NCBI GenBank assembly: GCA_947072665.1
Contig: CAMTIW010000002.1
Coordinates: 1 to 53,343 of the forward strand
Length of the DNA: 53,343 bases
Source: an uncultured Fusobacteriaceae bacterium
Lineage (GTDB): Bacteria; Fusobacteriota; Fusobacteriia; Fusobacteriales; Fusobacteriaceae
Reading direction: 5' to 3'
The notes beneath the pieces are model-generated. The model saw only the letters and a program-made list of their open reading frames with translations. It had not been told where the DNA came from and did no database searches. The translations under genes were made by a program, and so were the position numbers. The first letter of the stretch is position 1; every line of letters starts with the position of its first letter. Positions 3,765 through 34,405 of this stretch are shown here, piece by piece.

Positions 3765-5099
3765 ATGGAATTAAATGTAAAAAAAGGGGGGTTGTTCACT
3801 TTGGCAATTCCTATACTTTTAGAACTGCTACTTATGACAGTTGTGGGAAATGTAGATATTATTATGGTTTCTAAATATAGTGATAAAGCCGTTGGAGTAC
3901 TAGGTGGTATGAGCCAAGTAATGTATACACAAAATATACTTTTTAGTTTTATTTCCATAGGAACTGGAATTTTAATATCTCAATATATAGGTGCTAAAAA
4001 TAAAAATAAAATTCAAGAGGTTATAGCAGTTTCTTTGGTATTAAATATAATATTTGGATTAGTTTTAGGAATAATTTATTGGTGGGGAAGTGAGTTTATT
4101 TTAACTAAAATAAAATTTACCCCAGAGTTAATTAGTATTGGATTAAATTATTTTAAGATAGTTGGAGGTATTTGTGTTTTTCAAGCTGTTACTCTTACAG
4201 CCACTTCAGCTTTAAGAAGTCACGGGCACACGAAAGAGACGTTGTATATAAATATAATTATAAATTTATTAAATGTTGTGGGAAATGGAATGTTTATATT
4301 TGGTTGGTTTGGTGCACCTATTTTAGGAGTGACAGGAGTTGGTATTGCAACTGTTTTTTCAAGAGGGGTAGGAATGATAATAGCACTTATTATTCTTTTA
4401 AAACTTTGTGATTTTAAAATTAATACTCGTTATTTGGTTCCATTCCCAAAAGATGTATTGAGACACATTACAAAAATTGGAATTCCTAGTGGAATGGAGC
4501 ATTTGAGTTGGAGCATGGCACAAATAGTTATTTTAGCCATGGTAAATACCATGGGGACACCTACCATAGCAGCTAGAACATATTTAAATTTAATAGCTTC
4601 TTTTATGATGATGTTTTCCATAGCTTTGGGACAAGGAACAGCTATTGTCACAGGGAGATTAATAGGTGAAAAAAAAATTGATGAAGCTTATAATCAGTGT
4701 TTAAAAAGTGTAAAATTATCTCTTGGAGTAGCTTGTATTATTTCAATTTTTGTAATTATTTTTCAAAATACTATTATGGAGTTTTTCACAAAAGACCCAG
4801 AAATTATATCTATTGGAAAGAAAGTTTTTTGGACTTTTATTATTATAGAAACAGGGAGAACTTTTAATATAGTTATAATTAATTCACTCCATGCAGCAGG
4901 AGATGTTAAATTTCCAATGTTTGTAGGAATAGGTTGTATGTTTGGGGTTGCTGTTTCAATGTCATGGTTTCTAGGTGTTAAATTAGAATTAGCACTAGTT
5001 GGAATATGGCTTGCAAATTCTATGGATGAATGGATTAGAGCCATTATCATGTTGAAAAGATGGAAGAGTAAAAAATGGGAGAAAAAAGGTTTTATTTAA
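3765..5099 (+). CDS. MATE family multidrug/metabolite efflux transporter
   Basis: A 444-aa protein with about twelve hydrophobic segments in two homologous halves, as in the MATE family, which exports cationic drugs or metabolites in exchange for Na+ or H+. The N-terminal IPILLELLLMTVVGNVDIIM is the usual first-helix pattern (LxxxxVGxVDxxM). A MATE-like ALRSHGHTKE segment near residue 150 and its repeat, LHAAGDVKFPM, in the second half are also present. The start at ATG 3765 has an AGGGAAGG ribosome site. It is the last gene of the first plus-strand cluster and ends just before a hairpin shared with the convergent ugp operon. The substrate is unknown. Confidence 0.85.
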   Translation: MELNVKKGGLFTLAIPILLELLLMTVVGNVDIIMVSKYSDKAVGVLGGMSQVMYTQNILFSFISIGTGILISQYIGAKNKNKIQEVIAVSLVLNIIFGLVLGIIYWWGSEFILTKIKFTPELISIGLNYFKIVGGICVFQAVTLTATSALRSHGHTKETLYINIIINLLNVVGNGMFIFGWFGAPILGVTGVGIATVFSRGVGMIIALIILLKLCDFKINTRYLVPFPKDVLRHITKIGIPSGMEHLSWSMAQIVILAMVNTMGTPTIAARTYLNLIASFMMMFSIALGQGTAIVTGRLIGEKKIDEAYNQCLKSVKLSLGVACIISIFVIIFQNTIMEFFTKDPEIISIGKKVFWTFIIIETGRTFNIVIINSLHAAGDVKFPMFVGIGCMFGVAVSMSWFLGVKLELALVGIWLANSMDEWIRAIIMLKRWKSKKWEKKGFI

Positions 5100-5158: not shown

Positions 5159-6454
5159 TTATTTATTTACTCTATTATATCTTTCAATTATTTTATTTGA
5201 ATCAGAGATATTTTTATCAATAATTTTATCTATTGAAATTTTTCCTTCATAGTTTTTTTCCATAGCTTCAGTCATTTTATCTCTAAGTTCTGGAAAGACT
5301 CCTATAATTGCTCCTTGAGTTGCATAAGATGCTTTGGTTTCTTTTATCTCTGCAACAGCAGTCCCAAATTGTGGATATTTCTCTATATTTTTTATCATCT
5401 CTGGTGTATTATAAGAAGCTTTATTAACTGGATAATAACCTGTATTAATTGACCAATATGATTGAACATCTTTAGATATAGTATATTTTATGAAATCCCA
5501 AGCAGCTTTTTGAGTAGAATTAGCTGAAGAGTTTGTTATCCAAAGAGATGCACCTCCCACTACACTTCCATTGAAGTTACCAGTTTTATTTAAAATAAAT
5601 CCTGTTCCAACTTCAAAATTAGCATTATTTATAATCCCTTTAATTCCAGCAGAAGAATCAAAATACATAGCCATTTTTCCAGCGGAGAATGCTGCTCTTA
5701 TGGAGTCCCATTCTCTACCAAAGGATGTTGCAGAATCATCTTTGTACATTCCTCTTAAGAACTCAAAAATTTGTGATAATTCTTTTTGATATGAAACTGA
5801 TGTGGGATTTTCATGGGTTCTACCGTTATCTTTATTAACAAAGAGAGCGCCATCATTAGCTAAAAATTGTTCTATAAACCAACTATACATCAGTATGGCC
5901 GATCCATATCTATCAATAGAACCATTATTATTTTTTTTAGTTAGTTTTTTTGAGTATTCAGCAAATTCAGTATAATTTTTTGGAGGAATATTTGGGTCTA
6001 AACCAGCTTCTTTAAAAGCATCTTTATTGTATATCATTACAGCTGTTGAACTATTAAAGGGCATTGAGTATAATTTTCCATCTACTTTATAGTAGTTTAA
6101 AAGAGCATCCTCTAATTGATTAATATCAAAATTATCTTTTTCAATAAATTTTTGCATAGGGGTTATAGCATCGCTTTTGTACATAAATGCTGTTGAAATA
6201 TCATTCATCTGAATAAGAGTAGGAGCATCTTTTGTCCCAGAGATGGCTTTAAATTTGCTAATTGTTTCTTCATAAGAACCTTGATAAATCGCTTCAACTT
6301 CTACATTATTTTGAGAGTTATTGTAGTTTGTAACAATTTTATTTAGAGTAGTTTGAAGTTCCCCACTCATTGAGTGCCAAAATATTACTTTTTCTTTTGC
6401 TAAAAGAGTTGTAGATATAAATAAACATAATATTATTATTTTTTTTAAATTCAT
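5159..6454 (-). CDS. ugpB: ABC transporter substrate-binding protein, UgpB-type (sn-glycerol-3-phosphate/glycerophosphodiester)
   Basis: A periplasmic solute-binding protein of 431 aa. After a plain signal peptide (cut predicted near LLAKE) it follows E. coli UgpB closely: FWHSMSGEL at the mature start, QGSYEETISKF, PFNSSTAVMIYNKDAF with EAGLDPNIPPK, VGGASLWITN, and TGYYPVNKASY. These segments include ligand-contact regions in UgpB, so glycerol-3-phosphate or a glycerophosphodiester is the likely cargo. The lack of a lipobox implies a free periplasmic protein and therefore a diderm cell. It is the last gene of ugpA-ugpE-ugpB, 23 bp after ugpE. No ATPase or UgpQ phosphodiesterase lies nearby. 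Confidence 0.88.
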   Translation of the reverse strand: MNLKKIIILCLFISTTLLAKEKVIFWHSMSGELQTTLNKIVTNYNNSQNNVEVEAIYQGSYEETISKFKAISGTKDAPTLIQMNDISTAFMYKSDAITPMQKFIEKDNFDINQLEDALLNYYKVDGKLYSMPFNSSTAVMIYNKDAFKEAGLDPNIPPKNYTEFAEYSKKLTKKNNNGSIDRYGSAILMYSWFIEQFLANDGALFVNKDNGRTHENPTSVSYQKELSQIFEFLRGMYKDDSATSFGREWDSIRAAFSAGKMAMYFDSSAGIKGIINNANFEVGTGFILNKTGNFNGSVVGGASLWITNSSANSTQKAAWDFIKYTISKDVQSYWSINTGYYPVNKASYNTPEMIKNIEKYPQFGTAVAEIKETKASYATQGAIIGVFPELRDKMTEAMEKNYEGKISIDKIIDKNISDSNKIIERYNRVNK

Positions 6455-19966: not shown

Positions 19967-20884
19967 ATGAAAAAAATTATTGTAATTGGAAGTATTAACA
20001 TGGATTTAGTAACATTATGTGAAAGAGCGCCAAGAGGTGGAGAAACTCTTTTTGGAAAAGAATTTTTTCAAATTCCAGGAGGAAAGGGTGCTAATCAAGC
20101 AGTTGCTATGGGAAAACTAGAATCACAAGTAATAATGCTTGGAAAAGTTGGAAATGATAGTATGGGTGAAGAATTATTGAAGAGTATGAAACAAAATGGT
20201 GTTAATACCAACTATATTGAAAAAACTCAAGATTCTTCGGGAATTGCAAAAATTATTGTGGAACAAAATGGTGAAAATAGAATATTAGTTGTGCCAGGAG
20301 CTAATGGAGAGGTTGACATAGAGTATGTAAATAGATATATTGAATTATTAAAAGAAGCTGATTATATAGTAGCACAATTGGAAATCCCTATTGAAACTGT
20401 TAAATATGTTTTTAAAAAGGCACATGAATTAAAAAAAATAACTATACTAAATCCAGCTCCTGCAATAGAATTAGATGATGAAATAATAAAATATTCAGAT
20501 TATATTATACCGAATGAAACAGAATTAGAAATATTAACAGGAGTTAAAATAGTAGACAGTGAGTCTACAAAAATAGCGGCTAATATTTTAATTGAAAAAG
20601 GTGTAAAAAATCTTATAGTTACATTGGGAAGTAAAGGGTGTAGGGTTATAAATAAAAAATTAGATATATTTATTTCCGCATTTAAAGTAAATGCTATTGA
20701 TACGACAGCAGCTGGAGATAGTTTTATAGGTGGTTTTTTAAATGCAATATCACAGGGCTTAAAAATTGAAGAAGCTGTTGAGAGAGGAACTACAGTAGCT
20801 GCAATTTCTGTAACAAGAAGGGGAGCACAAACATCTCTCCCGACATTAAAAGAAGTTTTAGAGTATAAAGGAGAAAAAAAATGA
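19967..20884 (+). CDS. rbsK: ribokinase
   Basis: A PfkB-family sugar kinase of 305 aa that phosphorylates D-ribose to ribose 5-phosphate. The N-terminal signature is IGSINMDLVTLCERAPRGGE, with the substrate motif PGGKGANQAVAMGKL. Near residue 250 is DTTAAGDSFIGGFL, whose Asp in AAGD is the catalytic base. Ribokinase-type NPAPA is present near residue 163. ATG 19967 has a TAGGAG ribosome site. The stop overlaps the start of rbsD by four bases (ATGA), so the two are translationally coupled. Confidence 0.95.
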   Translation: MKKIIVIGSINMDLVTLCERAPRGGETLFGKEFFQIPGGKGANQAVAMGKLESQVIMLGKVGNDSMGEELLKSMKQNGVNTNYIEKTQDSSGIAKIIVEQNGENRILVVPGANGEVDIEYVNRYIELLKEADYIVAQLEIPIETVKYVFKKAHELKKITILNPAPAIELDDEIIKYSDYIIPNETELEILTGVKIVDSESTKIAANILIEKGVKNLIVTLGSKGCRVINKKLDIFISAFKVNAIDTTAAGDSFIGGFLNAISQGLKIEEAVERGTTVAAISVTRRGAQTSLPTLKEVLEYKGEKK

Positions 20885-21288
20885 AAAAAATAGGAATGCT
20901 AAATAGTGAACTTAGTTATGAAATTTCAAAACTGGGGCATACACAACATATTACTCTTTGTGATGCAGGACTTCCTATTCCCAAAACAGTAAAAAGAATA
21001 GATTTAGCAGTAACCAAAGGATTACCTAGCTTTATTCAAGTTTTAGAGCCAATTTTATTTGAAATGAAAGTTGAAGAAATTATTTTAGCCAGTGAGATAG
21101 AAGAAATTAATCCTGATATGTTAAAAGGTATTAAAGATATTTTTAAATTAAATAATATAGAAGTAAAAATTACAATGGTATCACATGAAGAATTAAAAGA
21201 ATTAACTTATAGCAGTGAAGCAATTGTAAGAACAGGAGAATGTTCTCCCTATGCAAATGTAATATTAAAATCAGGTGTTGTATTTTAA
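20881..21288 (+). CDS. rbsD: D-ribose pyranase
   Basis: RbsD/FucU-family mutarotase, 135 aa, which converts beta-pyranose to beta-furanose ribose so that RbsK can use it. The catalytic His20 lies in LGHTQHITLCDAGLPIP, the family signature, and the C-terminal ECSPYANVILKSGVVF gives the conserved Tyr-Ala-Asn. The length is typical (131-139 aa). It overlaps rbsK by four bases and precedes rbsA by 21 bp. RbsD proteins assemble as ring-shaped decamers in the cytoplasm. Confidence 0.95.
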   Translation: MKKIGMLNSELSYEISKLGHTQHITLCDAGLPIPKTVKRIDLAVTKGLPSFIQVLEPILFEMKVEEIILASEIEEINPDMLKGIKDIFKLNNIEVKITMVSHEELKELTYSSEAIVRTGECSPYANVILKSGVVF

Positions 21289-21309
21289 AAGATTAGGGAG
21301 TGCTTAAAA

Positions 21310-22800
21310 ATGAATAAAGAATTAGTTTTAGAAATGAAAAATATAGTGAAAACATTTCCAGGAGTTAAGGCTTTAGATGGTGCAAATCTCAATGCCTATC
21401 GGGGAAGAGCAATGGCTCTTATGGGAGAAAATGGAGCTGGGAAATCAACTTTAATGAAAATAATGACAGGAATTTATGAGAAAGATTCAGGTGAAGTTAT
21501 CTATAATAAAGAGAGTGTTGTTTTTAAAGATTCCAAAGATTCACAAAATTCAGGGATAGCAATAATACATCAAGAATTAAATTTAATTTCTGAGCTAAGT
21601 ATAACAGAGAATATTTTTTTAGGAAGAGAATTAACTAATTCATGGGGGAAAATAGATTGGAACCTTATGCATAAAGAAGCTAGAGAAATGTTAGATATGA
21701 TAAACATTGGAGACAGTGAAAAAAAACTAATAAAAGAATTAACAATAGGAACAATGCAAATGGTGGAGATAGCAAAAGCTCTTTCTCAAAATGCTAAACT
21801 TATTGTTATGGATGAACCAACAGATGCGTTAACAGATAAGGAAACAGAAAGTTTATTTAAAGTTATAAGAAACTTAAAAAAAGAGGGAAAAAGTATAATT
21901 TATATTTCTCATAGACTAAAAGAAATCCCAGAGATTTGTGAAGATATAACAATATTAAGAGATGGAAAATTTGTTTGTGAAGCAGAAGTAAAAGATATTG
22001 ACGAAAATTTTATAATAGAAAAAATGGTAGGAAGAACTTTAACAGAACAGTTTCCACATGTAAAAGTTAAATTAGGGAAAGAAGTTTTAAGAGTTGAAAA
22101 TTTAAATGGTAAAAAAGTAAAGAATAGTAGTTTCTCAATTAGAGAGGGAGAAGTATTAGGCTTTGCAGGTCTCATGGGTTCTGGTAGAACAGAACTGGCA
22201 AGAACAGTGTATGGTTATACCAAAAGCAGTTCTGGAAAAATATTTATAGATAATAAAGAGATAAAAATAAATTCAGCCAAAGATGGAGTAAAAAATGGAA
22301 TTGCCTATGTTTCTGAAGATAGAAAAGGAGACGGGTTAATATTGGACTTAAGTGTTATGGAGAATATGACGCTTTCATCTTTAAATAAAATTTCATCAAC
22401 ATTTAAAATAAATAAAAAAAATGAAATTATAGAAGTTGAAGACTATATAAAAAAATTTAATATAAAGACACCTCATATATATCAAATTATAAAAAATTTA
22501 AGTGGAGGAAATCAGCAGAAAGTTGCTATCGCAAAAGCTCTTTTGACTAATCCTAAAGTACTTATATTAGATGAACCAACTAGAGGGGTAGATGTAGGGG
22601 CTAAAAAAGAGATTTATGATGTTATTAATAAATTAAAAAAAGAAGGATTAAGTATAATAATAATATCTTCTGAAATGCCAGAAATATTAGGATTAAGTGA
22701 CAGAATATTAGTACTTCATGAACAGAAAATAATGAATGATTTTCCAATAGAAGAAGCTACTCAAGAAAAAATAATGAGAAATGCTGTAGGAGTGAAATAA
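21310..22800 (+). CDS. rbsA: ribose ABC transporter ATP-binding protein
   Basis: A 496-aa double ATPase. The first cassette has Walker A GENGAGKS (residues 39-46) and Walker B VMDEPTDALTD. Its signature, LTIGTMQMVEIAKAL, is degenerate, as usual in RbsA. The second cassette has a degenerate Walker A, GLMGSGRTELART, a full LSGGNQQKVAIAKAL and DEPTRGVDVGAKKEI. This asymmetry is typical of RbsA/MglA. ATG 21310 has a TAGGGAG ribosome site. The stop codon overlaps the rbsC start by one base (TAATG), so coupling is expected. It powers ribose uptake through RbsC. Confidence 0.95.
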   Translation: MNKELVLEMKNIVKTFPGVKALDGANLNAYRGRAMALMGENGAGKSTLMKIMTGIYEKDSGEVIYNKESVVFKDSKDSQNSGIAIIHQELNLISELSITENIFLGRELTNSWGKIDWNLMHKEAREMLDMINIGDSEKKLIKELTIGTMQMVEIAKALSQNAKLIVMDEPTDALTDKETESLFKVIRNLKKEGKSIIYISHRLKEIPEICEDITILRDGKFVCEAEVKDIDENFIIEKMVGRTLTEQFPHVKVKLGKEVLRVENLNGKKVKNSSFSIREGEVLGFAGLMGSGRTELARTVYGYTKSSSGKIFIDNKEIKINSAKDGVKNGIAYVSEDRKGDGLILDLSVMENMTLSSLNKISSTFKINKKNEIIEVEDYIKKFNIKTPHIYQIIKNLSGGNQQKVAIAKALLTNPKVLILDEPTRGVDVGAKKEIYDVINKLKKEGLSIIIISSEMPEILGLSDRILVLHEQKIMNDFPIEEATQEKIMRNAVGVK

Positions 22801-23726
22801 TGATAAAAAAAATATGGAATAACAAACCACTAATAGGATTAATTGTATTTTCAATAATAGTTTCAATAATAAATCCAAGATTTTTAAGTATACCAAATAT
22901 AATGAATGTTTTGAGACAAACTTCTGTAAATTCAGTAATTGCAATTGGAATGACATTAATTATTTTAACTGGTGGAATAGACCTTTCAGTAGGTTCTATA
23001 TTAGCATTTTGCGGTGCTATTATGGCTAGTTTAATAGGAAGTGGTTTAAATTCAGTTATAGCAATTATTTTATCACTTATTCTAGGTGGAGTTTTTGGTC
23101 TTGCAAATGGGGTTTTGGTCTCTAAATATAAATTACAACCATTTATAGTAACATTAGTAACAATGACATTACTTAGAGGGGCTACACTTGTCTTTACCAA
23201 TGGGAAACCTATTTCTATTCCTAATGGTGGTGATTTATTTGATAATATAGGAGGAGGATATATTTTTGGTATCCCAGTTCCTATATATATAATGTTAGTT
23301 CTTTTTGTGATTGTTAACTATATTTTAAATAATACTAAATTTGGACGTTATATATATGCAGTAGGTGGAAATGAAGAAGCTACAAAATTATCAGGAATAA
23401 ATACAGATAAAGTTAAAGTTTATGTCTATGCCTTAGGTGGTTTTTTTGCCGCATTAGCAGGAGTTATAGTTACTTCACGTCTGGGGTCAGCTCAACCAAC
23501 AGCAGGATCAGGTTATGAATTAGATGCAATAGCTGCGGTTGTTTTAGGAGGGACATCTCTTTCTGGAGGGTATGGAAAAATTGCAGGGACAGCACTAGGA
23601 GCAGTTATAATTGGAGTTTTAGCTAATGCTTTAAATTTATTGGATGTTTCTTCTTATTATCAAATGATGGTGAAAGCCTTAGTAATATTAATTGCAGTTT
23701 CTATAGATAAAAAATCTAAGAAATAA
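22800..23726 (+). CDS. rbsC: ribose ABC transporter permease
   Basis: A 308-aa BPD_transp_2 family permease with about ten membrane helices. Signatures include [57 protein letters not shown] (the loop contacting RbsA), [18 protein letters not shown] and the C-terminal [15 protein letters not shown]. All are standard RbsC landmarks. It begins at the last base of the rbsA stop codon. It forms the homodimeric pore that receives ribose from RbsB. Confidence 0.95.
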
Positions 23727-23748
23727 CTATAAAAAAGGGGTGGTATTT

Positions 23749-24621
23749 ATGAAAAAAATATTTATTATGTCGGCATTAATATTTGGTTTGTTTACAGTTT
23801 CACAAGGAGCAGGAAAGATAGGATTAGTTGTATCTACTCAAGATAATCCATTTTTTGTAACATTAAAAGAAGGAGCAGAGGAAAAAGCTAAAGAATTAGG
23901 TTATGATTTAGTTGTTTTAGATTCTCAAAATGATCCTTCAAAAGAACTTGGAAATGTTGAGGATTTATTAGTAAAAGGAATAGATGTTTTATTAATTAAT
24001 CCAACTGATTCAGATGCAGTGGGAGCTGCAATTAAAGCTGCTAATAGAGCTAAAGTTCCAGTGGTAACATTGGATAGAGGAGCTAATAGTGGAAAGATAA
24101 CTTCTCATGTAGCTTCTGATAATATTGCAGGAGGTTTTTTAGCAGGAGAATTTTTAGAAAAAGAATTAAATGGAAAAGGAAAAATTGTTGAATTAGAAGG
24201 GATACCAGGAACAACTGCAGCAAGAGATAGAGGAAAAGGTTTTAATGATGCTATATCTGGAAAATTAGATGTAGTAGCCAGACAAACAGCAGATTTTGAT
24301 AGAACTAAAGGACTTACAGTAATGGAGAATATTCTTCAAGCTCAACCAGAAGTGAATGGAATTTTTGCTCATAATGATGAAATGGCATTGGGAGCTTTAA
24401 AAGCTGTAGAATCTTCAGGAAGAAAAAATATTATTATTATTGGATTTGATGCAACATCTGATGCTATAAAATCGGTAAAAGATGGAGGAATTACTGGTAC
24501 AGTAGCACAAAAACCTTTAAAAATAGGTTCTATGGGTGTGGAAATTGCAGATAAAATAATGAAAAAAGAAAAAGTAGATGCTAATATACCAGTTGAATTA
24601 GAATTAATAATTAAAAACTAA
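23749..24621 (+). CDS. rbsB: ribose ABC transporter periplasmic binding protein
   Basis: A periplasmic sugar-binding protein of 290 aa. The signal peptide ([15 protein letters not shown], cut near SQGA) lacks a lipobox, so the protein should be free in the periplasm. The mature part starts [20 protein letters not shown] and contains [38 protein letters not shown] and [13 protein letters not shown], all closely matching RbsB ligand-site segments. ATG 23749 is chosen over GTG 23740 because the AAGGGG ribosome site overlaps the GTG and stands eight bases before the ATG. It is the last gene of the operon and is followed by a terminator. Confidence 0.95.
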
Positions 24622-26108: not shown

Positions 26109-26768
26109 ATGAAAGTAATAAAAGCAAAATCTGCAAGAGAACAAGTTTATGAAAAATTAAAAGAAATGATAAGTGAAGGAAAAATATCTCAAGGTCAAAG
26201 AATAGTTGAATTAGAATATGCAGATTATTTTAAAACTAGTAGAACTCCCATAAGAGAAGCTATAAGAATGTTGGAATTAGAAGGATTATTAGAAGAGAAT
26301 TCAAATGGTGGAATGTCTGTAAAAAAAATAACAGAAAAAGATATTTTAGAAATTTTTCAAATAAGAATAGCTTTGGAAAGTATTATTTTAAAAGAAATAA
26401 TTGATAAGAATAATAAAAATAATATTAAAAAATTAGAGAAAATAATAAATAAAACAAAAGAAAGTATAGATAAGAATTATAGTGCGAGCAATATTTTTAA
26501 ACTATTTTCTGAGTTTAACGAAACTCTTTATAGTATTTCTGAATATTCTAGAGTTGTAAATTTAATAAAAAATATAAATATGTATCTAAAAATATTTAGA
26601 CGTTATTCAGTTGAAGATTTAGAGAGAAGATTATTTGCATATGGTGAGCATTGTGCAATTGTAGAGGCACTAAAAAATAATGATATAGAGACAGCTTTAG
26701 CATTAAATGAGAAACATCTTAAGAGTTCAAGAGATTTTTTGATTAAAAATTTAGACGAAAAAAAATAA
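26109..26768 (+). CDS. GntR-family regulator (FCD domain), likely controls the oad-cit operon
   Basis: A 219-aa FadR-type GntR protein. The N-terminal winged helix-turn-helix covers residues 5-70, with FKTSRTPIREAIRMLELEGL as the recognition part. The C-terminal FCD ligand domain is all-helical, with IFQIRIALESIILKE and a His-containing C-terminal GEHCAIVEAL that fits the metal/ligand-binding pattern. ATG 26109 has an AAGGTGAGAG ribosome site. It shares a transcript with the aminotransferase and is separated from oadA by a terminator and a promoter with a GTATACaGTATAC palindrome, its most likely target. The effector is probably an organic acid (citrate or oxaloacetate); this is inference. 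Confidence 0.87.
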   Translation: MKVIKAKSAREQVYEKLKEMISEGKISQGQRIVELEYADYFKTSRTPIREAIRMLELEGLLEENSNGGMSVKKITEKDILEIFQIRIALESIILKEIIDKNNKNNIKKLEKIINKTKESIDKNYSASNIFKLFSEFNETLYSISEYSRVVNLIKNINMYLKIFRRYSVEDLERRLFAYGEHCAIVEALKNNDIETALALNEKHLKSSRDFLIKNLDEKK

Positions 26769-26775
26769 AAAAACA

Positions 26776-26815
26776 AAAATAAACTTTAACATTTTCTATG
26801 GTTAAAGTTTATTTT
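26776..26815 (+). terminator. terminator after the gntR gene upstream of oadA
   Basis: A perfect 15-bp stem (26776-26790 with 26801-26815; core AAACTTTAAC/GTTAAAGTTT), a 10-base loop and a T-rich 3' arm followed by TTTTGTATAATTT. It separates the aminotransferase-gntR transcript from the oad-cit operon. Confidence 0.8.
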
Positions 26816-26836: not shown

Positions 26837-26866
26837 TTGACAAAATAGAGGTATTAGTAATATAAT
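26837..26866 (+). promoter_or_regulatory. promoter of the oad-cit operon
   Basis: Consensus TTGACA (26837-26842), an 18-base spacer and consensus TATAAT (26861-26866). Both hexamers are perfect, so the promoter should be strong unless repressed. Confidence 0.85.
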
Positions 26867-26871
26867 TTACG

Positions 26872-26884
26872 GTATACAGTATAC
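26872..26884 (+). promoter_or_regulatory. putative GntR operator at the oad-cit transcription start
   Basis: GTATACAGTATAC is a perfect 13-bp palindrome (two GTATAC units around one base) that begins five bases after the -10 box and so covers the start site. FadR-type regulators recognise t.GT-(0-1)-AC.a palindromes, and a FadR-type gntR ends about 100 bp upstream. Binding here would block initiation. Confidence 0.7.
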
Positions 26885-26942
26885 AATGAAAATTAGAAAA
26901 ATTAGTAATTTATAATTAAGATAAAATTAGGAGGATGATTTT

Positions 26943-28334
26943 TTGGATAAGTTAAAAATAACGGAAACAGTATTAAGAGATGGACACCAATCTCTTATAG
27001 CAACTAGATTAAGAACGGATGAAATATTACCAATATTAGAAAAAATGGATCAAGTTGGTTATTATGCTTTAGAAGTTTGGGGAGGAGCTACATTTGATGC
27101 TTGTATAAGATTTTTAGATGAAGACCCATGGGAAAGATTAAGAGAAATAAAAAAAAGAGTTAAAAATACAAAACTTCAAATGCTATTAAGAGGTCAAAAT
27201 TTATTAGGATACAGACATTATGGTGATGATATAGTTGAAAAATTTGTAGAAAAATCAATAACAAATGGAATAGATATTATAAGAATATTTGATGCTTTAA
27301 ATGATTTAAGAAATATAAAAGTAGCAGCAGCAGCAACTAAAAAATTTGGTGGACATTGTCAAATTGCTATTTCTTATACGATAAGTCCGGTTCATACTAC
27401 TGAATACTATAAAAAATTAGCCAAAGATATAGATGAAATGGGAGCAGATTCCATTGCAATAAAAGATATGGCAGGAATATTACTTCCAGAATACGGCTAT
27501 GAATTAATAAAAGCTATAAAAACTGTTACCAATCTTCCATTAGAACTTCATACTCATGCTACTAGTGGAATATCAGAGATGCTTTATCAAAAAGCTATAG
27601 AAGCAGGAATAGATATTATAGACACAGCAATTTCAACTTTTGCAGGGGGAACATCTCAACCAGCAACAGAATCAATAGTGAGAGCTCTAAAAGGAACAGA
27701 AAGAGATCCTGGACTTAATTTGACTTTATTAAAAGAGATTGCAGAATATTTTAAACCTATAAGAAAAAAATATATAGATGATGGTACTTTAAATCCTCAA
27801 GCCTTATTTACGGAACCAAGTATTTTAGAGTATCAACTTCCTGGAGGAATGTTATCAAATTTAGTATCTCAACTTACAGCTCAAAAAGCGGCTAATAGAT
27901 ATGAGGAAGTTTTAAGAGAGATTCCAAAGGTTCGAGAGGATTTAGGTTTTCCACCTTTAGTAACTCCTTTGAGTCAAATGGTAGGAACACAGGCTGTATT
28001 TAATGTATTATCAGGTGAAAGATATAAAATGGTTCCAAAAGAAATAAAAGATTTTGTAAAAGGATTATATGGAAAATCTCCAGCACCTATGAATGCAGAG
28101 ATTGTACATAAAATAATAGGAGATGAAGTTCCTTATACAGGGAGACCAGCTGATTTATTAGGACCTGAGTTAGAAACTTTAAAATTAGAAATAGGAACAC
28201 TAGCTAAAACTGATGAAGATGTACTTATTTATGCAATGTTCCCTCAAATAGGAAAAGGATATCTTGAGAATAGAGAAAAACCTAAAAATATTATTCAAGA
28301 AACAAAAGTACAACATATAAATATTGTATTTTAA
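26943..28334 (+). CDS. oadA: oxaloacetate decarboxylase carboxyltransferase subunit (alpha, without biotin domain)
   Basis: A 463-aa carboxyltransferase of the OadA/pyruvate carboxylase 5S type that moves CO2 from oxaloacetate to biotin, leaving pyruvate. Active-site residues are visible: D13 in TVLRDGHQS, K174 in IAIKDMAG (the carbamylated Lys) and the metal-binding H203 and H205 in LHTHATSG. RGQNLLGYRHY is another hallmark. The biotin-carrier tail of Klebsiella OadA is missing; a separate carrier is encoded 395 bp downstream. The start is a TTG at 26943 with AGGAGG eight bases upstream, and no in-frame ATG is close. It is the first gene of an eight-gene operon. Confidence 0.93.
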   Translation: MDKLKITETVLRDGHQSLIATRLRTDEILPILEKMDQVGYYALEVWGGATFDACIRFLDEDPWERLREIKKRVKNTKLQMLLRGQNLLGYRHYGDDIVEKFVEKSITNGIDIIRIFDALNDLRNIKVAAAATKKFGGHCQIAISYTISPVHTTEYYKKLAKDIDEMGADSIAIKDMAGILLPEYGYELIKAIKTVTNLPLELHTHATSGISEMLYQKAIEAGIDIIDTAISTFAGGTSQPATESIVRALKGTERDPGLNLTLLKEIAEYFKPIRKKYIDDGTLNPQALFTEPSILEYQLPGGMLSNLVSQLTAQKAANRYEEVLREIPKVREDLGFPPLVTPLSQMVGTQAVFNVLSGERYKMVPKEIKDFVKGLYGKSPAPMNAEIVHKIIGDEVPYTGRPADLLGPELETLKLEIGTLAKTDEDVLIYAMFPQIGKGYLENREKPKNIIQETKVQHINIVF

Positions 28335-28375: not shown

Positions 28376-28699
28376 ATGAATAGTTTATTCGGAGCAGAAA
28401 TATCTGTGTATGAATCTCTTATAGTAACTGCTATATGCATGGGGATAGTTTTTAGTGTTTTAATTATAATTTCAGGAGTTTTAACATTGTTTAAATTTAT
28501 TCCCGCAGAAGTTATTGTGAAAAAAAATATTTCCAAAACTACTAAAATAGAATCTACTTTAGTAAAGGAAAATAAAAAATTTGATGTAAATGAAATAAAA
28601 GATGAAAAAATGGTTGTAGCTATGTTAGTTGCATCTATGGAAGCAGCAGCAGAAAACGAAAATGCCTATGTTAGAGTAAAATCAATAAGAGAACTATAA
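28376..28699 (+). CDS. oadG: oxaloacetate decarboxylase gamma-like subunit
   Basis: A small membrane anchor of 107 aa: one N-terminal membrane helix (SLIVTAICMGIVFSVLIII) followed by a charged cytoplasmic tail ending in VAMLVASMEAAAENENAYVR, similar to the C-terminal region of OadG and MmdD-type delta subunits. It should tie the carboxyltransferase and biotin carrier to the beta subunit; in Klebsiella OadG also carries a Zn site, and no His-rich tail is seen here. ATG 28376 has an AGGAAGGA ribosome site. It lies 41 bp after oadA and 29 bp before the carrier gene. Confidence 0.85.
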   Translation: MNSLFGAEISVYESLIVTAICMGIVFSVLIIISGVLTLFKFIPAEVIVKKNISKTTKIESTLVKENKKFDVNEIKDEKMVVAMLVASMEAAAENENAYVRVKSIREL

Positions 28700-28728: not shown

Positions 28729-29079
28729 ATGATAAAAGTATATAAAATTAAGGTTGCAGATAAAGTTTATGAGGTAGAAGTAGAATCTATAACTGAAAAA
28801 GAAGGGACAGTAGTTTCTCAAGAGAAAAAAGAAACAATAGCTCCAAAAGTAGCAGTACAAGCTGGAGGAATAAAAATAGAATCTCCAATGCAAGGATTAA
28901 TAATTGAAATATTAGTAAAAGTAGGAGATACCGTAAAAGCTGGTGATACAGTTGCAACACTTGAGGCTATGAAAATGGAAAATCCTATAGTAGCACCTCA
29001 AGATGGAACGATAACTTCAATTACAGCATCTAAAGGAGATACTGTAGACGGTGGAGATTTACTAATAACTTTAGCATAA
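28729..29079 (+). CDS. biotin carboxyl carrier protein of the Na+-pumping decarboxylase
   Basis: A 116-aa biotinyl carrier. The C-terminal 70 residues form a biotinyl domain with EAMKMENP, whose Lys82 is the biotinylation site, preceded by ESPMQGLIIEILVKVGDTV and followed by APQDGTITSI. The N-terminal 40 residues form a short strand-rich segment and linker (Pro/Ala-poor compared with MmdC or GcdC). It shuttles CO2 from OadA to the membrane beta subunit. ATG 28729 has an AAGGAG ribosome site. This replaces the fused biotin domain of the Klebsiella enzyme. Confidence 0.93.
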   Translation: MIKVYKIKVADKVYEVEVESITEKEGTVVSQEKKETIAPKVAVQAGGIKIESPMQGLIIEILVKVGDTVKAGDTVATLEAMKMENPIVAPQDGTITSITASKGDTVDGGDLLITLA

Positions 29080-29104: not shown

Positions 29105-30223
29105 ATGGAGTTGTTGAAAAACTTATATTCTACTACAGGTCTTGCTCTTATGACAATAGAACAAGCAATTATGATAGTAGTAGCATTATTTTTAATATAT
29201 TTAGCAGTAAAAAAACAGTATGAACCTTATCTATTACTTCCAATATCTTTTGGAATGTTTTTAGTTAACTTTCCTTCACCAATAAATGAAGGACTTATGG
29301 AACCAGGTGGACTTTTATATATTTTATATCAAGGTGTAAAAATGGGAGTTTATCCTCCTCTAATTTTCTTAGCAATAGGAGCAAGTACAGATTTTGGACC
29401 ACTTATTGCTAACCCTAAAAGTTTACTTTTAGGAGCAGCAGCTCAATTTGGAATTTTTGGAGCTTTTATTGGAGCAACTTTACTTGGAATGACAGGAGCA
29501 GAAGCGGCGTCTGTAGGAATAATCGGTGGAGCAGATGGTCCAACAGCTATTTATTTAACATCTAAATTAGCACCACATATGTTGGGACCAATAGCAGTTG
29601 CTGCTTATTCATATATGGCTTTGGTACCAGTTATTCAGCCACCAATTATAAAGCTTTTTACAACCAAAGAGGAAAGACAAATAAAAATGACACAGCTTAG
29701 AACTGTTTCAAAAAGAGAGAAAATTGTATTTCCAGTTATTGTGTCAGGAGTTGTAATTTTAATGATTCCATCTTCAGCACCTCTTATTGGGATGTTAATG
29801 TTTGGAAACTTAGCTAAAGAATGTGGACTTGTTCCTAATTTAGTTGAACATATGAAAGGTTCTTTAATGTATATAATAACTATTTTTATTGGAATAACAG
29901 TTGGAGCGACTACAAGTGCAGAAGCATTTTTAAATATAGCAACAATAAAAATAATTATACTTGGACTTTTTGCTTTCTGTTTTGGAACTTCAGCAGGAGT
30001 AATTTCAGGGAAAATTATGTGTAAATTAAGTGGTGGAAAAATTAATCCTATGATAGGAGCAGCAGGAGTAAGTGCAGTGCCCATGGCAGCGAGAGTTGTT
30101 CAAAAAATAGGTCAAGAAGAGAATCCTAGTAATTTTTTACTTATGCATGCAATGGGACCAAATGTTGCAGGTGTTATTGGTTCAGCAGTAGCAGCAGGAG
30201 TTCTTTTAGCAATATTTAAATAA
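29105..30223 (+). CDS. oadB: Na+-pumping decarboxylase beta subunit
   Basis: A polytopic membrane protein of 372 aa that decarboxylates carboxybiotin and drives Na+ export. The signature IIGGADGPTAIYLTSKLAPH holds the essential Asp of helix IV. Further conserved parts are FLAIGASTDFGPL, AYSYMALVPVIQPPI and a C-terminal MGPNVAGVIGSAVAAG. At 372 aa it is closer to the short beta subunits of glutaconyl- and methylmalonyl-CoA decarboxylases than to the 433-aa OadB of Klebsiella. ATG 29105 has an AAGGAG ribosome site. It lies 25 bp after the carrier gene. Confidence 0.93.
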   Translation: MELLKNLYSTTGLALMTIEQAIMIVVALFLIYLAVKKQYEPYLLLPISFGMFLVNFPSPINEGLMEPGGLLYILYQGVKMGVYPPLIFLAIGASTDFGPLIANPKSLLLGAAAQFGIFGAFIGATLLGMTGAEAASVGIIGGADGPTAIYLTSKLAPHMLGPIAVAAYSYMALVPVIQPPIIKLFTTKEERQIKMTQLRTVSKREKIVFPVIVSGVVILMIPSSAPLIGMLMFGNLAKECGLVPNLVEHMKGSLMYIITIFIGITVGATTSAEAFLNIATIKIIILGLFAFCFGTSAGVISGKIMCKLSGGKINPMIGAAGVSAVPMAARVVQKIGQEENPSNFLLMHAMGPNVAGVIGSAVAAGVLLAIFK

Positions 30224-30267: not shown

Positions 30268-30570
30268 ATGAAGTTGAAAGTAAAATCAATTGCTGGAACT
30301 TTAGAATCTAGTGATATTCAAATTATGGTAGAACCAATTACTGAATTAGGAATATTAATAAATTTAGAAAGTGTAGTTATGGGACAGTACGAAGAGGATA
30401 TTAGAAATGTAATTTTAGAAACTGCTGAGGAAATGGGTATTACATCAGCAAAAATTTATGCTAATGATAAAGGGGCTATATCAGCTGTTATTAAAAGTAG
30501 AGTTCAAACGGCTCTTCATAGATCATCACAGCAGGAGAAATTTATATGGGCAAAAGGAGGGAATAAATAA
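30268..30570 (+). CDS. citD: citrate lyase acyl carrier protein (gamma subunit)
   Basis: A 100-aa acyl carrier of citrate lyase. Ser14 in GTLESSDIQI is the expected attachment site for the phosphoribosyl-dephospho-CoA arm, and the C-terminal ISAVIKSRVQTALHRSS follows the family pattern. ATG 30268 has an AAAGGAG ribosome site. The stop codon overlaps the citE start by one base. The ligase (citC) and prosthetic-group genes (citX, citG), which activate this protein, are not in the window. Confidence 0.93.
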   Translation: MKLKVKSIAGTLESSDIQIMVEPITELGILINLESVVMGQYEEDIRNVILETAEEMGITSAKIYANDKGAISAVIKSRVQTALHRSSQQEKFIWAKGGNK

Positions 30571-31469
30571 TGAAATTAAGACGTTCAATGCTTTTTGTTC
30601 CTGGAAATAATCCTGCAATAATAAAAGATGTTCATATTTATAAACCTGATGCTATAATGTTCGATTTAGAAGATGCCATTGCAGTGACTGAAAAAGATTC
30701 AGCAAGATTTTTAGTATATAATATGATTAATAAATTTAGAGATTACTATAAGAAATTTAATATAGAAACTGTAGTTAGAATAAATGCTTTAGATACTGCT
30801 TATGGAGTAGAAGATTTAGAGTTTATAGTGAGAGCTCAACCAGATGTAATAAGACTTCCAAAGACAGAAACAGCCCAAGATATTTTAGATGTAGAAGCAC
30901 ATATAGCAAGAATTGAAGCAGAGATTGGAATTCCAGTTGGAACAACAAAAATGATGGCAGCAATAGAAAGTCCATTAGGGGCATTTAATGCTCGTGAAAT
31001 ATCTGTATCAACAAAAAGATTAATAGGAATAGCTATTGGTGGAGAAGACTATGTAACTAGTATGAAAACTAATAGATCTCCTGAGGGAATAGAATTATTA
31101 GCAGCTAGAAGTATGATAGTTATGGCTGCAAGAGTAGCAGGAATAGCAGCTCTTGACACAGTTTATTCAGATGTTAATAATGATGAAGGATTTTTAAGAG
31201 AAGCTAATTTAATTAAGCAGATGGGATTTGATGGAAAATCTTTAATTCATCCAAGACAAGTTGAACTTGTTCATGGTGTTTATACTCCAAAAGAAATAGA
31301 TATAAGAAAAGCTAATAAAATAATAACTGCTACAGCAGAAGCGGAAGCAGCAGGATTAGGAGTATTCACTGTGGATGGAAAAATGGTTGATAGACCTATA
31401 ATTGAAAGAGCTAAGCATGTATTAGCACTGGCTAAAGCAGCTGGAGTAAATGTAGGAGGTAGTAACTAA
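30570..31469 (+). CDS. citE: citrate lyase beta subunit (citryl-ACP lyase)
   Basis: A 299-aa HpcH/HpaI-type TIM-barrel lyase that splits citryl-ACP into acetyl-ACP and oxaloacetate. The N-terminus RRSMLFVPGNNPAIIKDV is diagnostic. FDLEDAIAVTEKD holds metal-binding acids, and ETVVRINALDTAYG, MMAAIESPLGAFNAREI and GIAIGGEDYVTSM give the CoA and metal sites. The length matches E. coli CitE (about 302 aa). It starts at the last base of citD (TAATGA) and ends two bases before citF, so the three genes should be tightly coupled. Confidence 0.94.
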   Translation: MKLRRSMLFVPGNNPAIIKDVHIYKPDAIMFDLEDAIAVTEKDSARFLVYNMINKFRDYYKKFNIETVVRINALDTAYGVEDLEFIVRAQPDVIRLPKTETAQDILDVEAHIARIEAEIGIPVGTTKMMAAIESPLGAFNAREISVSTKRLIGIAIGGEDYVTSMKTNRSPEGIELLAARSMIVMAARVAGIAALDTVYSDVNNDEGFLREANLIKQMGFDGKSLIHPRQVELVHGVYTPKEIDIRKANKIITATAEAEAAGLGVFTVDGKMVDRPIIERAKHVLALAKAAGVNVGGSN

Positions 31470-31470
31470 T

Positions 31471-33018
31471 ATGGAAAATAAAAGAATAACCAATGAATTA
31501 TTAAAAACTATAAAAGGATATGCAAATAGAGAAGCATATGTTTCACCCTTTGCATTTCAGCCAGAAGGAACAGTTATAGAAGCTTTAGAGCTTAAAGATC
31601 AAGTTAAAAGAACTAAAATTATAGATACTTTGGAAGAGGCTATAAAACTTTCTGGATTAAAAGATGGTATGACTATATCTTTCCATCATCATTTTAGAAA
31701 TGGTGATAAAGTATTACCTATGGTTATGAAAAAACTAGCTGAAATGGGCTTTAAAAATCTTAGAGTAGCATCAAGTTCTTTAACAGCAGCTCATGTTTGT
31801 TTAGTAGATTATATAAAAGATGGTGTAGTAAATAGAATAGAGTCTAGTGGTGTTAGAGGGAAGCTTGCAATAGCGATTTCTGATGGGATTTTAGGAGATT
31901 ATCCAGCTGTTATTCGTTCACATGGTGGAAGAGCAAGAGCAGTAGTGTCTGGAGATTTAAAAATAGATGTAGCATTTTTAGGGGCTCCATCTTCAGATTG
32001 TATGGGAAATTCAAATGGAGTATTAGGAAAATCTATTTGTGGTTCTCTAGGTTATGCAAAAGTAGATGCAGCACATGCAGAAAAAGTTGTTATTATAACA
32101 GATACTTTAGTTGACTATCCAAATCATCCAATTAGTATTCCACAAACAGATGTTGATTATGTAGTAGTAGTAGATGAAATTGGAGATTCTTCAGGAATTA
32201 TGTCTGGTGCAACTAGATTTACATCTAATCCAAAAGAGTTATTAATGGCTAAAAAAGTATTGGAAACAATGTTAGCGTCTGGATTATTTCAAGATGGATT
32301 TTCTATGCAAACAGGTTCAGGTGGAGCTTCTTTAGCAGTTACAAGATTTATAAGAGAAGAATTGATAAAAAGAGATATGAAATGTAGTTATGCACTGGGT
32401 GGAATAACAAAAGCTTTCGTGGATCTATTAGAAGAAGGATTAGTTGGAAAACTGTTTGATACTCAAAGTTTTGATTTAGGTGCAGCAGAATCAGTGGGTA
32501 GAAATGCAAGACATGAAGAAGTTAGTGCAGATTTTTATGCAAATCCATTCAATGCTTCTCCAGCAGTGAATAAATTAGATTTTGTTGTTTTAAGTGCTTT
32601 AGAAGTGGATAAAGATTTTAATGTAAATGTAATATCTGGTTCTGATGGAGTAATAAGAGAAGCATCTGGTGGACATTCAGATACAGCAGCAGCAGCAAAA
32701 ATGTCTATAATAGTAGTTCCATTGGTAAGAGGAAGAATGGCTACTCTTATGGATAGAGTTACAACAATAGTTACACCAGGAAGTACTGTAGATGTAGTAG
32801 TAACTGACTATGGTGTAGTAGTAAATCCTAGAAGAATAGATTTAATAGAAAAGTTTAAAGAATCTGGAATAGACTTGAAAACTATGGAAGAATTGAGAGA
32901 AATTGCTGAATTTATCGTTGGAAAACCTAAGGCAATAGAGTTTACAGATAAAGTTGTAGCAGTGGTTGAATATAGAGATGGAACTATTATTGATGTGGTA
33001 AGACAAATCAAAAGGTAG
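31471..33018 (+). CDS. citF: citrate lyase alpha subunit (citrate:acetyl-ACP transferase)
   Basis: A 515-aa CoA-transferase-fold protein that exchanges acetyl-ACP for citryl-ACP. Typical CitF segments: ISFHHHFRNGDKVLPMVM near residue 70, LGAPSSDCMGNSNGVLGKS, FQDGFSMQTGSGGASLAVTR and SGGHSDTAAAAKMSIIVVPL. The length agrees with known CitF proteins (about 505-520 aa). It starts one base after citE, using a ribosome site within citE (GGAGGT at 31456-31461). Together with CitD and CitE it completes the citrate lyase complex whose product oxaloacetate feeds the decarboxylase encoded upstream. Confidence 0.94.
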   Translation: MENKRITNELLKTIKGYANREAYVSPFAFQPEGTVIEALELKDQVKRTKIIDTLEEAIKLSGLKDGMTISFHHHFRNGDKVLPMVMKKLAEMGFKNLRVASSSLTAAHVCLVDYIKDGVVNRIESSGVRGKLAIAISDGILGDYPAVIRSHGGRARAVVSGDLKIDVAFLGAPSSDCMGNSNGVLGKSICGSLGYAKVDAAHAEKVVIITDTLVDYPNHPISIPQTDVDYVVVVDEIGDSSGIMSGATRFTSNPKELLMAKKVLETMLASGLFQDGFSMQTGSGGASLAVTRFIREELIKRDMKCSYALGGITKAFVDLLEEGLVGKLFDTQSFDLGAAESVGRNARHEEVSADFYANPFNASPAVNKLDFVVLSALEVDKDFNVNVISGSDGVIREASGGHSDTAAAAKMSIIVVPLVRGRMATLMDRVTTIVTPGSTVDVVVTDYGVVVNPRRIDLIEKFKESGIDLKTMEELREIAEFIVGKPKAIEFTDKVVAVVEYRDGTIIDVVRQIKR

Positions 33019-33055: not shown

Positions 33056-34405
33056 ATGGCTAAAAATTTTAAAGAACTTTTTGATAACAAAGAGTTTAAA
33101 TGGGGAGGATTAAATCCTACTTTATTTGCTATTATGTTAGTGGTAGTGGGGATTATAGTATATATGCCTTTTGGTGGGAAACCAGCAGGAGCATTTTTAA
33201 GACCTAACTTTTTAATAATGTTATCTATATTGGCTGTTTACGGTTTACTATTTGGAGAAATTGGAGATAGAATTCCTATTTGGAATGAATATGTAGGTGG
33301 AGGAACGGTACTGGTGTTCTTTGCATCAGCAGTTATGGGAACTTATGAATTAGTTCCAGCAAAAACATTAAAAGCAATAGAGGTTTTTTATAATGGTTCT
33401 TCTGTAAACTTCTTGGAATTATTTATTCCAGCATTGATAGTAGGTTCAGTTTTAACAGTTAATAGAAAGTCACTAATTAAATCTATAGCTGGTTATATCC
33501 CTTTGATACTTATTGGTGTAGCAGGAGCAATGACAGGGGGAATTTTAGTAGGATTATTATTTGGAAAAGAGCCATTAGATGTAGTTATGAACTATGTATT
33601 ACCTATAATGGGTGGTGGAACAGGTGCAGGAGCTATACCAATGTCAGAAATGTGGGCTCAAAAAACTGGTAAAGATGCAAAACAATGGTTTGCATTTGCA
33701 ATTTCAATACTTACAATAGCAAACGTTATCGCTATTTTCTGTGGAGCATTTTTAAAGAAAATGGGAGATAAATATCCAAGTTTGACAGGACATGGAGAAT
33801 TAGTTATAGCTAATTCAAGAGATATAGAAGAGGAAAAAGAGTTAAAAGTTGAATCTGGACCAAGAGAATTTGCTGCAGCTTTATTCTTTACAGGAGTTTT
33901 AGCAGCAGTAGCTCATATGTTAGGAATGTTATGGTCATCAATGAATATGCCTTTTGAAGTTCATAGACTTGCATTTTTAGTTCTTTTAGCAATTTTACTA
34001 AATGTAATTAATATTGTTCCTCCAGTAATAAAAGAAGGAGCAAAAAAAATGCAATCATTCTTTTCTAAGTATACTATTTGGATATTAATGGCAGCAGTAG
34101 GATTTGGAACGGATGTTCAAGAAATAATAAATTCATTTACATTTGGAAATGTAGCTATTGCTTTGGCAATAGTAGGTGGAGCAGTTATTGCTATTATGTT
34201 ATGTGCTAAGAAAATGAAGTTCTATGCTGTAGAAGCAGCAATAACGGCAGGACTTTGTATGGCAAATAGAGGTGGATCAGGAGATATCGCAGTTTTAGGA
34301 GCAGCAGATAGAATGGCACTTATATCTTATGCACAAATATCTTCAAGAATAGGTGGAGCTATGATGCTTATTATTGGTTCAGTAATATTTGGATTCTTTG
34401 CATAA
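33056..34405 (+). CDS. citS: 2-hydroxycarboxylate transporter family citrate:Na+ symporter (CitS-like)
   Basis: A 449-aa membrane transporter of the 2-HCT family. The two re-entrant loop motifs of this family are present: MGGGTGAGAIPMSEM near residue 190, and MANRGGSGDIAVLGAADRM near residue 405. IPIWNEYVGGGTVLVFF and a long cytoplasmic loop between halves also fit CitS. Family members carry citrate or malate with Na+; its position at the end of a citrate lyase operon points to citrate. The ribosome site is AGGGGGA. A strong terminator follows at once, so this is the last gene of the operon. Confidence 0.91.
   Translation: MAKNFKELFDNKEFKWGGLNPTLFAIMLVVVGIIVYMPFGGKPAGAFLRPNFLIMLSILAVYGLLFGEIGDRIPIWNEYVGGGTVLVFFASAVMGTYELVPAKTLKAIEVFYNGSSVNFLELFIPALIVGSVLTVNRKSLIKSIAGYIPLILIGVAGAMTGGILVGLLFGKEPLDVVMNYVLPIMGGGTGAGAIPMSEMWAQKTGKDAKQWFAFAISILTIANVIAIFCGAFLKKMGDKYPSLTGHGELVIANSRDIEEEKELKVESGPREFAAALFFTGVLAAVAHMLGMLWSSMNMPFEVHRLAFLVLLAILLNVINIVPPVIKEGAKKMQSFFSKYTIWILMAAVGFGTDVQEIINSFTFGNVAIALAIVGGAVIAIMLCAKKMKFYAVEAAITAGLCMANRGGSGDIAVLGAADRMALISYAQISSRIGGAMMLIIGSVIFGFFA

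Follow-up and report, generated by a model that had tools for sequence, protein, structure and literature searches.

Tandem GTATAC units in a 7-bp register form a candidate GntR operator at the oad-cit promoters of Fusobacteriaceae

The oad-cit operon of an uncultured Fusobacteriaceae bacterium carries a pair of GTATAC units over its predicted start site, and in related genomes such units form longer arrays with an exact 7-bp period. The arrays are conserved at the first gene of the operon, related ones occur at unlinked genes, and the gntR gene that lies upstream co-occurs with oadA across the family. We infer, with good confidence, that the adjacent FCD-type GntR protein binds this 7-bp tandem operator and represses the oad-cit operon, with citrate or a related acid as inducer. 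The 13-bp palindrome formed by the pair would be the minimal two-unit form of an operator in which GTATAC is repeated at exactly 7 bp, to which the GntR protein encoded just upstream would bind, presumably cooperatively. Spanning the region from the -10 hexamer to the start site, the bound units would hinder the polymerase or initiation and so repress the operon, and the likely signal for release of the regulator would be citrate or a di- or tricarboxylate made from it. The same type of regulator would control genes for citrate entry (citS, tct), citrate lyase and the decarboxylase and, in some relatives, also biotin synthesis (bioB) or biotin attachment (birA), which the biotin-dependent decarboxylase needs.

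The window, i.e., the whole stretch of 53,343 nucleotides that was analysed, contains the palindrome GTATACaGTATAC at 26872-26884, where it covers the start predicted for the oadA-citS operon. The original prediction had placed it five bases past a consensus -10 in a near-perfect promoter; its letters and coordinates are as claimed (GTATACAGTATAC is the exact reading of the interval), and so is its position. TATAAT ends five bases before the palindrome, the predicted transcription start falls inside it, and the two hexamers, with a spacer of 18, are the sole 12/12 promoter match in the kilobase examined. Units 1 and 2 (Table 1) together make the palindrome, a weak third unit lies in phase with them, and a three-unit pattern fits 26865-26884 with two mismatches. 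As a description the palindrome was right in sequence and incomplete in extent, being a two-unit sample of an array with a 7-bp period; we dropped the reading of the site as an isolated palindrome, as relatives carry arrays in 7-bp phase. Between gntR and the promoter lies an A/T-rich hairpin that may end the gntR transcript and separate gntR from the operon; a G+C-based terminator scan found none. The oadA start codon is TTG at 26943.

Table 1. Features of the gntR-oad-cit region, in window coordinates
Feature	Position	Strand	Basis
gntR, FCD-subfamily GntR regulator, 219 aa, presumed binder	26109..26768	+	Pfam GntR 54 bits, FCD 55 bits
A/T-rich hairpin after gntR, possible terminator	26776..26815	+	Fold z-score -3.5, 0/200 shuffles equally stable
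-35 hexamer TTGACA	26837..26842	+	Promoter scan, 12/12 hexamer match with -10
-10 hexamer TATAAT	26861..26866	+	Promoter scan, spacer 18
Weak in-phase third unit AATTTAC	26864..26870	+	Array scan; overlaps end of -10
Operator unit 1 (putative), gGTATAC	26871..26877	+	Sequence, array scan
Operator unit 2 (putative), aGTATAC	26878..26884	+	Sequence, array scan
oadA ribosome-binding site AGGAGG	26929..26934	+	Read from sequence
oadA, oxaloacetate decarboxylase alpha (carboxyltransferase), first gene of presumed controlled operon	26943..28334	+	NCBIfam NF008985 798 bits, cut-off 718
oadG	28376..28699	+	Pfam/NCBIfam searches
Biotin carrier protein	28729..29079	+	Pfam/NCBIfam searches
oadB	29105..30223	+	Pfam/NCBIfam searches
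citD, citE, citF: citrate lyase	30268..33018	+	Pfam/NCBIfam searches
2HCT-family citrate transporter (CitS-like)	33056..34405	+	PF03390 439 bits

The operon runs in the order oadA, oadG, biotin carrier, oadB, citD, citE, citF and a 2HCT/CitS-type transporter (33056-34405), which obtains 449.9 bits with the NCBIfam CitS model, under its cut-off of 600. Elsewhere in the window, upstream of an aminotransferase gene, the stretch 19967-24621 reads like a ribose-type operon (kinase, RbsD-like protein, ABC ATPase, permease and binding protein), as judged from translations only.

The gene directly upstream of the operon does encode a FadR-type regulator, as had been proposed, with both the GntR (PF00392) and the FCD (PF07729) domain above gathering scores. 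Its predicted fold (pLDDT 89.8) has a first helix that begins at residue 9 and matches the FCD structures 7u5q, PmiR, Atu1419 and TM0439; DhdR was also found as an FCD-fold relative by structure. The nearest PDB sequences are 7xp0 (PmiR), 3c7j and TM0439, with NanR weaker, and PmiR is a methylisocitrate sensor. NanR and PhnR were considered as identities of the protein and rejected, the former scoring 64.9 bits with the NCBIfam NanR model against a cut-off of 260 and the latter far under its cut-off. The recognition segment SRTPxREAxRMLELEG is conserved in all 23 aligned GntR sequences, in which Arg45, Arg86 and Asn137 are invariant. By phmmer, residues 14-95 of the protein and of Atu1419 align at identical numbers; the numbering of Arg45 and Arg86 agrees with Atu1419, and Asn137 presumably corresponds as well. 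The pocket of Atu1419, which includes Arg86 and Asn137, is reported to hold citrate in crystals, with DNA binding unaffected by citrate (PMC7797058). A tricarboxylate ligand is plausible for the protein of the window. The usual FCD metal site is made up of Asp or Asn and three His; here N137, H181 and H203 are invariant and Tyr141 aligns with a His of TM0439; since one usual metal-site His is thus a Tyr, a metal-citrate pocket like that of CitO is not assured.

To follow the site in relatives we used a family set of 61 genomes, taking 184 bits or more to mark a close gntR copy. There are 38 further copies, all of which were taken (in 37 regions) and which bring the total with the window to 39 copies in 35 of the 61 genomes. 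In 24 of the 37 regions the next tested same-strand gene downstream of gntR is oadA, citS or citD. At the promoter of the first oad or cit gene, the relatives carry two to six GTATAC-like units with an exact 7-bp period: GTATAC is repeated in tandem in the gap between gntR and the operon, three times in L036, L058 and L069 and six times in L047, and several loci of genus g3 read GTATACA GAATACG GGACACC GGATACC. Among 32 hand-listed promoters, 24 have at least three units in phase, not all of them strong, and one of the promoters has six. Using a unit matrix, trained on the same promoters that it then scored, we found an array of at least 18 bits in all 24 relative gaps where gntR adjoins the operon, whether oadA, citS or citD comes first, and one of 20.3 bits in the window; 1 Mb of random chains, scanned on one strand, gave no array of at least 18 bits. 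The site is thus kept, as an array, in all 24 loci where gntR adjoins oad or cit genes, rather than being absent from relatives that keep the gene pair. With arrays in 24 of 24 loci, linked to gntR, the proposal of GntR control of citrate/oxaloacetate fermentation is supported and probably right.

The register is also evident in counts that do not use the matrix. In 16 gaps, those of 15 related loci (one to three per genus) and of the window, we counted same-strand ATAC-ATAC pairs on both strands, so that perfect units count twice. There were 35 pairs at 7 bp, 16 at 14, 7 at 21, 3 at 28 and 3 at 35, where about 0.15-0.2 are expected per distance, and none of 1000 shuffles reached any of these five counts. 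The only other distance that no shuffle reached was 26 bp (5 pairs), which corresponds, as we read the sequences, to the distance that separates the -10 box from the array in genus g3. Across 38 sequences (537 kb), unit pairs numbered 54 at 7 bp versus 2, 2, 2 and 0 at 6, 8, 9 and 10 bp, and 23 at 14 bp, as an array predicts, versus 5, 10 and 4 at 11, 12 and 13 bp. The step scan of these 38 sequences placed 6 of its 34 merged places within called reading frames; three of the six are the candidate g3 operator in over-long or spurious frames, and the remaining three (L040, L043 and the window at 7408) resemble chance matches. The genomes are related, so that counts of loci and promoters are not independent. 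Two loci, L167 (3012-3060) and L170 (2919-2967), have two arrays per oadA promoter, 35 bp (5 x 7) apart and in one shared 7-bp register, one of the arrays being a 22-bp perfect palindrome.

Rarity, by comparison, says little. A scan for further GTATAC pairs, as the original prediction suggested, found none: the palindrome is the only match with at most one mismatch in the 2.38-Mb assembly (85% complete). The reversed control pattern, at the same tolerance and in the same assembly, gives 10 matches; a one-mismatch pair is therefore expected by chance in such a genome, and rarity in the genome was dropped as evidence. Within the window there are five palindrome matches with at most two mismatches versus 1.04 expected, a count reached by one of 100 shuffles of the window (largest shuffle count, 6). 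Single GTATAC words are also found within genes. The pair might then be a chance occurrence or the site of another factor, with the proximity of gntR incidental, and both the reversed control and the words within genes agree with this; but register, position, conservation, similar sites at related genes and the co-occurrence of gntR with oadA all speak against it, and we hardly credit it. The significance of the pair comes from its position and conservation, not from its rarity.

The position relative to the promoter is shared by the relatives. In the 35 listed promoters the array begins 3-25 bp past the -10 in 30 and overlaps the -10 in four, and in one it lies 42 bp after a poor -10. This geometry is partly built in, as the first promoter search was confined to the stretch ahead of the array and to the array itself. 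A control search was run on both sides of the array, in which anchors that could be read on either strand were given the orientation with the better upstream promoter. In all 35 promoters the higher-scoring sigma-70-like pair is the one ahead of the array rather than the one behind it, with at most 2 penalty points in 27 promoters ahead and in none behind. The promoter assignments are weak for the first citS of G052, gntR of G015, tctC of G013 and bioB of G001. At L052 and other g3 loci the -10 box of oadA, TATACT, lies inside TGTATAC, so that the operator and promoter cores share letters.

Two known types of control bear on the sense of regulation. CitA-CitB two-component control acts on the same pathway, and the original prediction proposed GntR control in its place. 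A search of the genome (85% complete) for the CitA-type sCache_3_2 domain found none over the curated cut-off (one match, 25 versus 28.4 bits), and CitA-CitB control was rejected as a candidate on this ground; this agrees with that part of the claim, but as a contrast it is not new, because GntR/FCD control of citrate fermentation is already known from CitO. As described, CitO of Enterococcus faecalis controls citrate fermentation as a citrate-dependent activator (PMC4746285, PMC3198936), and it binds at -41 to -65 and -51 to -74, upstream of the -35 (PMC4746285). It resembles the regulator of the window in being an FCD GntR protein encoded with, and here putatively controlling, genes of citrate lyase and oxaloacetate decarboxylase. 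The difference is one of position: CitO activates from sites ahead of the -35, and the sites here, past the -10 and across the predicted start, imply repression. Could the GntR protein nevertheless be a CitO-like activator, with the array used the other way round? CitO belongs to the same FCD family, acts on the same pathway and activates with citrate, yet the arrays lie past the -10, or overlap it, where the CitO sites lie far upstream, and in every listed promoter the better-fitting promoter-like pair is ahead of the array. We consider an activator decidedly improbable and retain repression as the preferred reading.

How the protein would sit on the array is less clear, and three modes fit by analogy: one dimer per GTATAC, as for Atu1419, one per 13-bp repeat, as for DhdR, or dimers stacked on direct repeats, as for NanR. 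GTATAC itself matches the reported FCD operator consensus GTM-N0-1-KAC in sequence (PMC4494728). Atu1419, a VanR-type FCD protein of Agrobacterium fabrum, is described as binding ATGTATACAT, with Arg45 reading the G (PMC7797058). It shares with the system here the GTATAC core, which lies in its 10-bp palindrome, and Arg45, which is invariant in the aligned GntR sequences and is predicted to make the same contact. At atu1418-1419, according to the same report (PMC7797058), 190 bp separate the two palindromes of Atu1419 and a tetramer loops the DNA, unlike the 7-bp tandem units here.

One dimer could instead occupy the whole 13-bp inverted repeat, in which case the longer arrays would be extra or overlapping copies and 7 bp the half-site step. 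The model is DhdR of Achromobacter denitrificans, reported as a repressor released by a hydroxy-dicarboxylate; its site, the 13-bp repeat GTTATCAGATAAC, shares the GT-N9-AC layout and the single-base centre (PMC8651671). The window, moreover, has only two good units. The likeness is limited to the 13-bp inverted repeat with its 1-bp centre, as the DhdR site has other letters, is single, overlaps the -35 and serves another pathway. The many hand-listed promoters with three or more in-phase units speak against this mode, as does the report that Atu1419 needs no more than one GTATAC-core palindrome for binding (PMC7797058). We give it an appreciable chance, short of even.

A rather unlikely third mode is that of NanR-like direct repeats, in which the half-site would be asymmetric, ATAC as read on the coding strand, each repeat would take one dimer and the palindrome would be a by-product of the self-complementary GTATAC. 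NanR of Escherichia coli is reported to have a (GGTATA)3 operator on which three dimers are set on three GGTATA repeats; two or more units are needed for tight cooperative binding, and the cooperativity uses a 32-residue N-terminal extension (PMC8012715). It is a GntR-type repressor, as the regulator here would be, with detectable sequence similarity and closely spaced repeats after the polymerase site. However, the units of the K-12 nan operator are 9 and 8 bp apart, as we measured, versus 7 bp for the GTATAC units, the NanR unit is GGTATA rather than GTATAC, and the 32-residue extension is absent from the GntR protein of the window; an N-terminal extension of the NanR type is absent from all 23 aligned sequences. 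We compared the half-sites in 100 hand-listed units from 32 promoters, a count that depends on descent and was not used to choose a binding mode. On the coding strand, changes fall at 55 positions in left halves versus 28 in right halves, with 36 units changed on the left only, 12 on the right only and 10 on both, and four interior units of G056 retain ATAC and lose the G. This excess of changes on the left favours direct repeats, with the reservation that the unit boundaries were chosen by hand and the promoters are related. Retention of both end bases, G and C, in 72 of the 100 units (28 of the 36 interior ones) favours the symmetric reading.

The presence of the regulator follows that of the decarboxylase. 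With thresholds of 184 bits or more for gntR and 60% identity or more for oadA, 35 of the 61 genomes have both genes, none has gntR alone, one has oadA alone (G016) and 25 have neither (Fisher p 3e-16, ignoring descent). The pattern varies inside several genera and hence does not reflect a single split. An array of at least 18 bits is found at an oad or cit promoter in 30 of the 36 genomes with oadA. No array was found at oadA in G016, nor in G030, G032 and G033, which have both genes, and G020 and G021 have weak two-unit sites only, of about 13-16 bits (scanned in G020). The second oadA of G036 has no array; this and the bare oadA promoters of G030, G032 and G033 speak against the proposed control. 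Most of the other oadA copies (L162, L163, L165, L166, L168, L169 and L171 to L178), among them the second oadA of the window's own genome (C99, L162), have no array of at least 14 bits. In L162 (G000:C99) and L163 (G047:C43) the second oadA follows an apparent paralogue of the window's aminotransferase gene, with neither gntR nor an array between the two, as though a duplication of the cassette had left its control behind.

Arrays are also found away from the operon. Exact GTATACNGTATAC has 12 matches at nine separate places in eight of the 61 family genomes, versus four for the reversed control. Eight of the nine places adjoin gntR, ahead of an oad or cit gene; the ninth precedes bioB in G001, which is followed by bioD and a class-III aminotransferase gene reading as bioA. 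Counts of three-unit matches with up to three mismatches were dropped as evidence, with about 81 matches versus 72 for the reversed control (summed columns) in the 61 genomes. Because this total is barely above the control, looser unlinked matches rest on position and gene function rather than on their number. Among the matches listed, those with at most two mismatches occupy 12 separate places, 11 at oad, cit or tct promoters and one in a gene (L116). We inspected 14 looser matches, picked by eye and not at random: eight are at promoters of related genes (L117, L118, L119, L120, L121, L122, L128, L129) and six are not, three being in genes (L116, L125, L126), two between unrelated genes (L123, L124) and one weak and unassigned (L127).

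The genes at these arrays point to a common theme of citrate entry, cleavage and decarboxylation, together with the biotin needed for decarboxylation. Arrays are present at tctC-tctA clusters, in L117 and, beside a second gntR copy, in L051, L054 and L066; at the biotin ligase gene birA in L118, L120 and L129 (three g3 genomes examined), where a sodium:solute symporter gene follows birA (family-tested in L120); away from gntR at bioB in L128 and at a flavocytochrome c gene in L119; and at oadA without an adjacent gntR in L121, L122, where birA precedes oadA, L161, L167 and L170. In the g3 loci L051 and L054, a tandem of two distinct gntR genes, which share about 52% and 37% identity with that of the window, stands ahead of the tct genes, and a flavocytochrome-like gene lies just upstream in L051. 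In genus g9 (L038, L043 and L045; three genomes) a gntR orthologue directly precedes bioB (family-tested in L038) and a methyltransferase gene (family-tested in L045). No GTATAC array was found in the flanks of these g9 gntR genes, their own promoter included, which counts against the proposed operator; that promoter carries the inverted repeat AAATTACAA...TTGTAATTT.

The arrays shared by birA in the three g3 genomes and bioB in G001, together with gntR adjoining bioB in the g9 genomes, also raise the possibility that the regulator senses biotin or the status of the carboxylase instead of citrate. Most targets are, however, genes of citrate transport, lyase and decarboxylase, the second g3 gntR copy stands ahead of tct genes with an array, and BirA has its own HTH; biotin sensing seems to us improbable, and citrate or a related acid remains the preferred inducer.

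The operator type may extend beyond one family. In G098 (contig CALHLF010000010.1), which encodes an FCD regulator 30% identical to that of the window, two- to three-unit 7-bp arrays are found at the promoters of the regulator itself and of 2-hydroxyacid dehydrogenase, transketolase and tctC genes (4920-4933, 5641-5654 and 8075-8095 in L032, and further in L180). This genome has six one-mismatch matches at five separate places, four of the places no farther than about 11 kb from the regulator gene; across the entire genome the reversed control has five matches. Three-unit matches also occur sporadically in the phylum to which G099, a Clostridium, belongs: eight, at seven places in seven of 398 genomes, with none for the control. 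Among these matches (including L190 and L192), one stands ahead of an aspartase-like gene and another ahead of a gene for an ABC ATPase; the others are unassigned, and none of the eight enters the claim.

Each ingredient has a precedent: CitO for citrate fermentation under GntR control, Atu1419 for a GTATAC site and NanR for a repeat operator, with steps of 8-9 bp. The 7-bp register, the regulon, the organismal setting and the link to biotin supply appear new within the literature searched, which was mostly without subscription papers: it described no regulator of citrate fermentation in this lineage, although an earlier description is possible, and held nothing relevant on 7-bp tandem GntR operators. 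Tentatively, and with considerable doubt, we suggest a new class of FCD-GntR operator, in which two to six dimers would be stacked each 7 bp (about 240 degrees), winding round the start site, the number of units would set the induction threshold of each target, and one regulon would tie the uptake and cleavage of citrate to biotin synthesis and attachment. The arrays offer a testable operator and a candidate regulon for citrate/oxaloacetate fermentation in a lineage without a described regulator in the literature searched, and the shared operator would tie the citrate pathway to biotin supply. The natural series of two- to six-unit operators may also reveal how packed GntR dimers cooperate without an N-terminal extension of the NanR type.
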